Assembly (NCBI GenBank): GCA_030153605.1
Contig: JASKLO010000012.1
Location: 1-39,872, forward strand
DNA length: 39,872 nt
Reading direction: 5' to 3'
Source: Thermosipho sp. (in: thermotogales)
GTDB lineage: Bacteria; Thermotogota; Thermotogae; Thermotogales; Fervidobacteriaceae
A program made the position numbers and the translations under genes. The notes beneath the pieces were generated by a model. The model saw only the letters and a list, made by a program, of their open reading frames with translations. It searched no databases and was not told the origin of the DNA. Shown here one piece after another: positions 36,361 to 38,753 of the stretch (positions within the stretch are counted from its first letter, which is position 1; each line of letters starts with the position of its first letter).

Positions 36361-37149
36361 TTAAATTTCTTCCTCTTCTTCTGAGTCTTCTATTTCAAAA
36401 AGTTCCTCTTCTTCTTTTATTTCTTTATTTTCTTTTTGTTCTTCTACTTCTTCTTGAGAGAAAGCTACTCCTTCTTTACCTTCAAGATAAGCATCTGCAA
36501 TTTTTGAGGTAATAAGCTGAATTGCTCTTATAGCATCGTCATTTCCAGGAATGATGTAATCAATTTCGTCGGGATCACAATTTGTATCAACAATACCGAC
36601 AGTTGGTATTTTTAAAAGGTTAGCTTCGTAAACAGCGTTTCTTTCCTTCTTGGGGTCTACAATATAAATTACATCAGGAATTCTATCCATGTTTTTCAAA
36701 CCGCCAAGATTTTTTCTGAGTTTCTCTAAGATTCTTTTTAATCTACTCTGTTCTTTTTTAGGAAGCTTTTCAAATTCCCCGTTAGCTTCCATTTCTTCAA
36801 GTTCAATTAGCCTATCGATTCTTTGCCTGATAGTTTTAAAGTTAGTCAATAATCCACCAAGCCATCTGTGGTTTACGTAAAATGCTCCACATCTTTCTGC
36901 TTCTTGTTTAATTACTTGTTGAGCTTGTTTTTTTGTTCCCACAAATAATATTGTTCCACCCTCTGCTGCTTTTTCTCTAACAAAGTTATAAGCCTCGTCC
37001 AATAATTTTGATGTTTTTTGCAAATCAATTATGTAAATACCTTTTCTTGCACCAAAAATGTAATCCTTCATTTTTGGGTTCCATCTATGGGTTCTATGTC
37101 CAAAATGGACCCCTGCTTCTAAAAGTTGTTTCATTGAAACTACTGGCAC
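36361..37149 (-). CDS. rpsB: Ribosomal protein S2
   Basis: 262 residues. N-terminus [26 protein letters not shown] is diagnostic (first 20 shown: [20 protein letters not shown]), followed by [33 protein letters not shown] and [25 protein letters not shown] in parts. The C-terminus is a highly acidic tail (Glu-rich, about the last 35 residues), longer than in many S2 proteins. Start: a GTG at 37149 directly after AGGAGGTGTTAAA; the open frame continues upstream to 37212 but that part is a glycine/asparagine-rich read-through of the leader. Usually followed by tsf; here tmk follows instead. Confidence 0.95.
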
Positions 37150-37178
37150 TTTAACACCTCCTATTTGGTTTGAACCTC

Positions 37179-37233
37179 CATTCCTTTCTGACCCACCGAC
37201 CTTTTTAGGCACCGAGGTGGGGATCCAGGAATG
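37179..37233 (-). ncRNA. Structured 5' leader of rpsB (candidate autoregulatory RNA)
   Basis: In the 92-base gap between rplT and rpsB, minus-strand RNA can form an outer 7-bp helix (CAUUCCU, complement of 37227-37233, with AGGAAUG, complement of 37179-37185). An internal loop of 5 and 6 bases follows, then an inner 6-bp helix (CCCACC, complement of 37216-37221, with GGUGGG, complement of 37192-37197), capped by a loop that can close a further CC/GG. The rpsB ribosome-binding site lies about 18 bases downstream. No U-run follows, so it is not a terminator. A binding site for S2 is an inference. Confidence 0.55.
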
Positions 37234-37241
37234 TGAGTTCT

Positions 37242-37598
37242 TTATTTGCTAATTGCCTCCTTGGCAATATTAACATATTCTTTAAAAGTTTCAGGATCAT
37301 TAACTGCAAGTTCCGCAAGCATTTTCCTGTTAATTGAAACGCCTGCAACCTTCAATCCGTGAATCAATTCATTGTATTTTAAACCTTCATTTCTAGCAGC
37401 AATATTTATTCTTGTAATCCAGAGTTTTCTGAAATTTCTCTTTTTAAGTTTTCTGCCTACGTATGCGTGTTTTTTTGCTTTTATGTATGCTTGTTTTGCA
37501 AGTCTGTATCTTCTGCTTAATGCACCTCTGTATCCTTTAACTGCTTTTAAAATCTTTTTTCTTTTTTTCTTGGCATTGACTGCATTTTTTACGCGCAT
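37242..37598 (-). CDS. rplT: Ribosomal protein L20
   Basis: 118 residues, highly basic. The sequence ([21 protein letters not shown], then [15 protein letters not shown] and [17 protein letters not shown]) is unmistakable L20. It binds 23S rRNA early in assembly of the large subunit and, in Bacillus and E. coli, also represses the infC-rpmI-rplT operon by binding the mRNA leader. Eighteen bases after rpmI, with ribosome-binding site GAAGGGAGGAATTT. Confidence 0.97.
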
Positions 37599-37616: not shown

Positions 37617-37820
37617 TTATCTTTTTCCAAGTACTCTTAAAATTCTTTTTTTGTCGGCGGGTTTAACCTCAGCCTCAAGTCTCAATTTTCTAAGTGTGGA
37701 TCTTCTCTTTTTTCCGGTTTTGTGCCAAGCAAATGCTTTTCTTCTGATTATCTTGCCGGTTTTCGTGATTTTAAATCTCTTAGCGGCTGTTTTGTGTGTC
37801 TTCATCTTGTTCTTAGCCAT
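37617..37820 (-). CDS. rpmI: Ribosomal protein L35
   Basis: 67 residues: AKNKMKTHKTAAKRFKITKTG opens the protein (family signature KMKTHKTAAKRF) and HKTGKKRRSTLRKL follows. It starts at the ATG at 37820 after GAGGAGGGAAAGT; a longer reading from 37835 adds five residues that overlap this site. It lies between infC and rplT in the standard order. Confidence 0.96.
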   Translation of the reverse strand: MAKNKMKTHKTAAKRFKITKTGKIIRRKAFAWHKTGKKRRSTLRKLRLEAEVKPADKKRILRVLGKR

Positions 37821-37831
37821 ACTTTCCCTCC

Positions 37832-38341
37832 TCAATTCTTAGGTTTTAACATCATCCACATATCTCTTCCTTCAAGTTTGGGTGGTTTTTCAACAACAGC
37901 AATATCTTTTAAATCAGAAATTACTCTTTCCAATATTTCTTTACCTTTATCCGCAAAAGCTAGTTCTCTTCCTCTAAACATTATTACAACCCTGACTTTA
38001 TTCCCGTCTTCAAGAAATCTTTTTATATGCCTTACTTTTGTTTGATAATCGTGTTCGTCAATTTTTATTCTAAACTTCATTTGCTTTACTTCTATTACTT
38101 TTTGATTCTTTTTAGCTTTTTTCTCACGTTTGGCAATTTCATATTTATATTTACCGTAATCCATTATTTTAGCTACTGGTGGATTTGCATTAGGTGCCAC
38201 TAAAATGAGATCAAGCCTTTTGGAATATGCCAAATCTAGAGCTTTGTTCGTTGGCATAATTCCAATTTGCTTTCCGTTTTCATCAACAACCCTTACTTCG
38301 GGTGCTCTAATTTCCTCATTTTTAATTATTTTGTCGATAAT
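37832..38341 (-). CDS. infC: Translation initiation factor IF-3
   Basis: 169 residues when started at ATT 38341-38339. N-terminal domain: KIIKNEEIRAPEVRVVDENG onward, with GIMPTNKALDLA. Linker: KYKYEIAKREKKAKKNQK. C-terminal domain: VKQMKFRIKIDEHDY and RFLEDGNKVRVVIMFRGRE. IF-3 selects the start codon and keeps subunits apart. The ribosome-binding site GGGAGGGGAG is placed exactly for an ATT codon; no ATG, GTG or TTG lies near. An AUU start is the known device by which IF-3 limits its own synthesis in E. coli. It is preceded by an attenuator-like leader. Confidence 0.95.
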   Translation of the reverse strand: MIDKIIKNEEIRAPEVRVVDENGKQIGIMPTNKALDLAYSKRLDLILVAPNANPPVAKIMDYGKYKYEIAKREKKAKKNQKVIEVKQMKFRIKIDEHDYQTKVRHIKRFLEDGNKVRVVIMFRGRELAFADKGKEILERVISDLKDIAVVEKPPKLEGRDMWMMLKPKN

Positions 38342-38364
38342 TCTCCCCTCCCAATATAAAAAAT

Positions 38365-38386
38365 TTGGCGAGCAAGCGCCCGCCAA
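38365..38386 (-). terminator. Leader terminator upstream of infC
   Basis: Nine-pair hairpin (one G-U) with a 4-base loop followed by six T on the minus strand (complement of 38358-38363), 17 bases before the infC ribosome-binding site. It would stop transcription arriving from the tRNA promoter unless the antiterminator forms. Confidence 0.8.
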
Positions 38387-38454
38387 TATTATCTTTAAAA
38401 ATATTTATTAACCCTTTTGCCTTATGGCTGAGGGTGGGAAGCGGGCGCTTCCAC
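38365..38454 (-). promoter_or_regulatory. infC leader: terminator, antiterminator pairing and anti-antiterminator hairpin
   Basis: Three structures share the same bases in the minus-strand RNA. Hairpin A (complement of 38434-38454): GUGGAAGC/GCUUCCCAC with one bulged G and loop GCCC. Terminator (complement of 38365-38386): UUGGCGGGC/GCUCGCCAA, loop GCUU, followed by U6. Alternative pairing: AAGCGCCCGC (from hairpin A) is exactly complementary over 10 bases to GCGGGCGCUU in the terminator 5' arm and loop. A nested stem (ACCCU/AGGGU, with GCC/GGC inside; 38411-38435) lies between them. The arrangement matches attenuation control such as L20-dependent regulation of infC operons; the ligand is inferred. 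Confidence 0.65.
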
Positions 38455-38475
38455 TTTTTAAATTATTTATTAATC

Positions 38476-38551
38476 TGGTGGGCCGTGTGGGACTCGAACC
38501 CACAGCCCCCTGATTAAGAGTCAGGTGCTCTACCTGTTGAGCTAACGGCCC
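38476..38551 (-). tRNA. tRNA-Lys (anticodon CTT)
   Basis: 76 bases. Acceptor GGGCCGT pairs with ACGGCCC, discriminator A, encoded CCA. Anticodon stem CCTGA/TCAGG encloses loop CTCTTAA, giving CTT. The T loop is GGTTCGAGTCC-type. It is the third of three tRNA genes and the one nearest infC. Confidence 0.96.
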
Positions 38552-38556
38552 ATTCA

Positions 38557-38631
38557 TGGTGCCCCAGGGAGGAATCGAACCTCCATTTGCGGATTAGGAA
38601 TCCGCCGTTCTATCCGTTGAACTACTGGGGC
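38557..38631 (-). tRNA. tRNA-Arg (anticodon CCT)
   Basis: 75 bases. Acceptor GCCCCAG pairs with CTGGGGC, discriminator A, encoded CCA. Anticodon stem GCGGA/TCCGC encloses TTCCTAA, giving CCT, which reads AGG. T arm GGAGGTTCGATTCCTCC. Confidence 0.96.
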
Positions 38632-38635
38632 TCGC

Positions 38636-38710
38636 TGGCAGCCCCACGGGGAATCGAACCCCGACCTTCGGACTGAGAATCCGATGGACTAGCCGTTATC
38701 CTATGGGGCC
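38636..38710 (-). tRNA. tRNA-Glu (anticodon CTC)
   Basis: 75 bases. Acceptor GGCCCCA pairs with TGGGGCT (G1-U72 wobble), discriminator G, encoded CCA. Anticodon stem TCGGA/TCCGA encloses TTCTCAG, giving CTC, which reads GAG. T arm CGGGGTTCGATTCCCCG. It begins 16 bases after the -10 element of the promoter. Confidence 0.94.
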
Positions 38711-38725
38711 ATAACACCATATTAA

Positions 38726-38753
38726 ATGATAACATAAAAAGTTTGCTTGTCAA
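38726..38753 (-). promoter_or_regulatory. Strong sigma-A promoter of the tRNA-infC transcription unit
   Basis: On the minus strand a perfect TTGACA (complement of 38748-38753) is followed, after 16 bases, by TATCAT (complement of 38726-38731). The first tRNA base is 38710, 16 bases downstream. I see no second promoter between tRNA-Lys and infC. Confidence 0.8.

Follow-up and report, generated by a model that had tools for sequence, protein, structure and literature searches.

In the window, by which we mean the whole 39,872-nt stretch of Thermosipho sp. DNA analysed here, a promoter-like site on the minus strand is followed in turn by three tRNA genes (tRNA-Glu, tRNA-Arg and tRNA-Lys), a structured leader, infC-rpmI-rplT and rpsB. 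The products of the genes 3' of the leader were confirmed as IF3, L35, L20 and S2, and rpsB (S2; 36361-37212) lies close behind rplT on the same strand. The features are as follows:

38726..38753, minus strand: promoter-like site TTGACA-16-TATCAT, 11/12 matches, with TG before the -10
38636..38710, minus strand: tRNA-Glu (CTC)
38557..38631, minus strand: tRNA-Arg (CCT)
38476..38551, minus strand: tRNA-Lys (CTT), ending 19 nt 5' of the AAG that opens the leader
38351..38462, minus strand: putative L20 leader, matching RF00558 from end to end (model 1-127)
38434..38454, minus strand: H1 hairpin GTGGAAGC-GCCC-GCTTCCCAC, with AAG on its 5' side
38411..38435, minus strand: second stem-loop ACCCT..GCC-AUAA-GGC..AGGGT, the second helix of RF00558
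38441..38450, minus strand: antiterminator 5' half, AAGCGCCCGC
38374..38383, minus strand: antiterminator 3' half, GCGGGCGCTT, the same bases forming the terminator 5' arm and loop
38358..38386, minus strand: intrinsic terminator, 9-bp stem and GCTT loop, then ATTTTTT
38345..38352, minus strand: Shine-Dalgarno-like GGGAGGGG for infC
37832..38341, minus strand: infC (IF3), with an in-frame ATT (38341-38339) or ATC (38338-38336) start
37617..37820, minus strand: rpmI (L35)
37242..37598, minus strand: rplT (L20), whose product is the presumed ligand of the leader

The initial annotation had described a three-state attenuator at this position, and the structures it named are all present on the minus strand. 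The exact 10-nt pairing it proposed is a perfect 10-bp helix between 38450-38441 (AAGCGCCCGC) and 38383-38374 (GCGGGCGCTT), or 11 bp if one G-U is counted. Its upstream half covers the H1 5' arm, the loop and the first bases of the H1 3' arm, and is buried, as had been claimed, in a hairpin at 38454-38434 (GTGGAAGCGCCCGCTTCCCAC; 8 bp with one bulged C). The U-tailed terminator expected before the infC Shine-Dalgarno is found at 38386-38365 (TTGGCGGGCGCTTGCTCGCCAA; a 9-bp stem followed by ATTTTTT), and a small stem does lie between H1 and the terminator, at 38435-38411. Taken singly, the 10-bp match is no more than moderately unexpected. When the 139-nt leader is shuffled 1000 times with its dinucleotides preserved, 46 of the shuffles contain a helix of at least 10 bp, and since 4.6% of shuffles equal its length we rejected the match by itself as proof. 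That the pairing is not due to chance follows from three other observations: the whole leader gives a better fold than shuffled versions of it (z -3.05), it matches RF00558 over the full length of the model, and its relatives carry compensatory changes.

The match to RF00558 (L20_leader) scores 47.5 bits with an E-value of 1.6e-8 (model 1-127), 11 bits under the Rfam gathering score of 58.7, which is a curation cut-off and not a mechanistic feature. A scan of Rfam at the gathering threshold returns three tRNAs only, so that the leader would be missed. The order of elements in RF00558 (AAG-flanked H1, second helix, linker, terminator) is nonetheless that of the window and of its relatives, the leader stands 5' of infC-rpmI-rplT as in the family, and the terminator stands in competition with an antiterminator fold, as indicated by the co-evolution, pairing registers and prefix folding described below. 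Judged by its sequence, the element matches a known family at a score below threshold and has the structural features of that family. The L20 leader of B. subtilis infC (Choonee et al., 2007; PMC6097659, PMC10931766) has the same helices in the same order, and the AAG-RGAAGC...GCUUCYCRCC core, the terminator and the infC gene 3' of it are shared; the Thermotogota leaders differ from this reference in falling below the Rfam cut-off and in an antiterminator register that varies by family. In B. subtilis, L20 is the ligand, binding the leader and promoting termination (PMC6097659, PMC10931766) through contacts at the H1/H2 junction (PMC6097659), and known L20 leaders mimic the L20 site on 23S rRNA (PMC7247131). 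By analogy, this mode of action of L20 in Bacillus most likely applies here, and homology leads us to expect that L20 binds the leader in this organism, where H1 would be both the anti-antiterminator and the L20-binding helix. We consider it very probable that the element in the window is a transcription attenuator of the RF00558 type that responds to L20 and forms part of a tRNA-Glu-Arg-Lys transcript.

It could be asked whether a genuine attenuator at this position answers to some signal other than L20, such as IF3, L35, an uncharged tRNA or temperature, given that infC is the first gene, that tRNA genes adjoin the leader, that leader stability varies with temperature and that L20 is here a presumed ligand. 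H1 and the second helix, however, match the L20 family, for which the ligand has been shown in B. subtilis (PMC6097659), rplT itself lies within the operon, and L20_leader is the sole RNA family with a credible match at the leader. The T-box covariance model gives no match at E-values up to 10 within 38200-38560, and the tRNA that adjoins the leader is an encoded gene. A signal other than L20 therefore seems very unlikely, and it is the L20-responsive attenuator that we follow through the relatives.

RF00558 was searched against 103 Thermotogota genomes, with Thermotoga maritima, B. subtilis and Lactococcus lactis as a control set in which all three gave a match. A match at E <= 0.01 was obtained in 77 of the 103 genomes and the gathering score of 58.7 was reached in one. 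Among the matches fetched, with E-values up to about 1e-4, all but two lie just 5' of infC; in 61 fetched loci (the window included) infC follows directly 3', and every one of the 61 leaders in this first set has the AAG-H1 motif. Thermotogota matches with E-values around 1e-3 were left out as leaders. Also set aside were L052, a match away from infC (E 1.9e-5) that proved to be a terminator region 5' of a minD-like gene, and L060, a match without infC. Recognisable leaders are also present in nearly all of 24 further infC loci, which come mainly from genomes where the match is weak or absent. The model search had suggested that family f9 lacks the leader, an idea that was rejected when its infC loci were found to hold a shortened, C-rich version behind tRNA-Lys; RF00558 is blind to these f9 leaders (L200-L206, L214) at infC. 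A U-tract follows the terminator stem in nearly all relatives. Two leaders of genus g20 (L006 and L010) have in addition a small hairpin-like GATCCCTAAAGGGATC between tRNA-Lys and H1. An L20 motif has been reported in Thermotogales, with Firmicutes as its presumed source (Sun et al., 2013; PMC3766115, in the passages available); it belongs to the same family and phylum as the leaders here, and those passages make no mention of antiterminator co-variation, tRNA linkage or a promoter.

Compensatory change among relatives had been set beforehand as the test of the proposed pairing; such changes were found, and they favour the antiterminator and bear out the reading of the leader as anti-antiterminator, antiterminator and terminator. 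In a swap test, the H1 of each leader was paired with its own terminator 5' arm and with permuted partners, and the duplex energies were compared. With one leader per genus (25), own duplexes average -19.3 kcal/mol vs -14.2 kcal/mol for swapped ones (z about -8, p < 0.001), on a test that counts genera as independent despite their shared ancestry, and with one leader per family (9) own partners again pair better than swapped ones (z about -4.5). The effect is much weaker or absent in a reversed-arm control (z -2.2 at the genus level and 0.3 at the family level). The unpaired loop bases of H1 covary with their antiterminator partners, as G-C in family f1, as A-U in f5, f10 and f11, as G-U in parts of f8, and as U-A in f6 and parts of f10. 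Individual leaders illustrate the exchange: GTCCGCC pairs with GGCGGAC in L049, CCATTC with GAATGG in L057, and CCACCCATAT with ATATGGGTGG in L003. By these pairings, the antiterminator, which lies outside the Rfam model, co-evolves with the terminator.

The part of the leader that supplies the antiterminator is itself not fixed. According to energy-based duplex predictions, the window's family uses the H1 5' arm and loop, genus g13 uses the loop and 3' arm (AGCCC-g-GCUUCCC with GGGAAGC-GGGCU, 12 bp with one bulge), f2 uses both H1 arms, and f9 uses the second helix, where CCCGCCUG pairs with CAGGCGGG and GUCAAUA with UAUUGAC. A few leaders (e.g. L046 and L047) have just 6 bp in the standard register. 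On these predictions, the antiterminator register has shifted between families, its role being kept while the bases change.

The possibility of a lineage-specific layout, raised in the initial annotation, found no support. Firmicutes leaders were sampled with the DNA pattern GAAGCGCCCGCTTCYCACC, which fixes the H1 sequence, so that the 88 distinct leaders obtained speak to conservation and not to co-variation. All share the arrangement, having the same H1 together with a terminator arm that matches it; the antiterminator between H1 and the terminator arm has at least 6 contiguous bp in 87 of the 88, and the H1/terminator-arm pairings are all better than those with shuffled arms. The same logic of anti-antiterminator, antiterminator and terminator under the control of an r-protein complex is known from the L10(L12)4 leader of B. 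subtilis rplJL (PMC4538822, PMC10931766), which differs in RNA, ligand and operon. The E. coli rpmI-rplT operator has the ligand and genes seen here (PMC10931766) but is translational, is based on a pseudoknot and does not cover infC.

The type of switch is itself known. The coupling to tRNA is the unusual part, and the initial annotation had overlooked the link to the tRNA genes. The 3' end of a tRNA-Lys(CUU) gene lies directly 5' of the leader, at 3-64 nt where measured, in 83 of 85 Thermotogota leaders, the other two standing at contig edges, whereas no tRNA was found within 300 nt 5' of the Firmicutes leaders with enough upstream sequence (0/108). Promoter scores 5' of the leading tRNA in the cluster average 10.65 out of 12 and reach at least 10 in 68 of 79 cases; over the last 90 nt before H1 the mean is 6.19 and none of the 79 reaches 10, although the comparison is uneven in that the constrained sequence of tRNA-Lys lowers the scores in that stretch. 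An unusual promoter inside the tRNA-Lys gene is possible, and in the usual case the gap is 3-25 nt, too short to accommodate a promoter that lies outside the tRNA. It seems from this arrangement that the infC operon is read from the tRNA promoter and that the L20 terminator doubles as the tRNA terminator; in the window, the tRNAs and the infC operon would both be driven from the promoter-like site at 38726..38753. Within the part of the literature covered, nothing relevant was found on tRNA-Lys in association with infC, and the passages of a T. maritima transcript map retrieved by keyword do not mention the infC leader locus.

The same gene order invites a simpler account, in which the hairpin and its U-tail merely end the tRNA operon, the 10-nt complement is coincidental and infC has a promoter of its own. 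The terminator is indeed 3' of the tRNAs, and the shuffle frequency given above shows how readily a 10-bp helix can arise. Against this, a terminator placed just 5' of the Shine-Dalgarno would silence infC if read-through were not controlled, no promoter-like site is present on this strand between tRNA-Lys and the terminator, the leader matches RF00558, and the antiterminator co-evolves with the terminator arm; we regard a terminator for the tRNAs only as extremely improbable. Rather, it is probable that throughout the Thermotogota infC-rpmI-rplT has no promoter of its own just 5' and is transcribed from the promoter of tRNA-Lys or its cluster into an L20 attenuator that also serves as terminator for the tRNAs, and r-protein synthesis would in this way be tied to stable-RNA transcription and trimmed by L20, with registers that shift while the role is kept.

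Folding of leader prefixes is consistent with such an attenuator. When the terminator 5' arm is out and the 3' arm is not, the antiterminator is ahead of H1 by 8.7 kcal/mol at 37 C and by 4.6 kcal/mol at 70 C, energies at 60-70 C being extrapolations, and once the terminator stem is complete the terminator fold is ahead by just 1-2 kcal/mol. With the antiterminator favoured in the prefixes and so small a lead for the terminator, read-through is the expected default, and a protein that kept H1 closed would therefore tip the balance towards termination. From these features we infer co-transcription, termination in the cell and the following order of events. RNA polymerase would start ahead of tRNA-Glu and transcribe the three tRNAs and then H1; the emerging GCGGGCGCUU would invade H1 to form the 10-11 bp antiterminator, allowing read-through into infC-rpmI-rplT. 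L20 in excess would bind the region of H1 and the second helix and keep H1 closed, leaving GCGGGCGCUU free, so that the terminator could form and transcription would stop 5' of the infC Shine-Dalgarno. The tRNAs would be made in both states, with L20 trimming r-protein output. An L20 leader might instead act on translation or RNA stability, as E. coli L20 represses translation (PMC10931766) and the terminator here is near the Shine-Dalgarno, yet the alternative pairing targets the terminator arm and not the Shine-Dalgarno, and the U-tract stands behind the stem in nearly all relatives, which makes control other than by termination highly improbable.

Attenuation by L20 may not be the only control at this operon. 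E. coli infC is known for non-AUG starts that are sensed by IF3. No ATG, GTG or TTG occurs at Shine-Dalgarno spacing for infC in the window; the start is likewise ATT, ATC or ATA, with no ATG, GTG or TTG at that spacing, in 77 of the 82 Thermotogota loci scored, and the other five also have an in-frame Ile codon nearby. By analogy with E. coli, there may be a second layer of control, with IF3 acting on the translation of its own gene and L20 on the whole operon.

As matters stand, the Rfam cut-off misses the L20 leader of nearly the whole phylum Thermotogota. Its leaders, with their sliding antiterminator, are a good case for riboregulator logic that is kept while the pairing drifts. If the coupling to tRNA is true, one promoter would feed both tRNAs and an r-protein operon, with an r-protein deciding at the tRNA terminator whether mRNA is made, and this would be a simple way of tying r-protein supply to stable-RNA synthesis.
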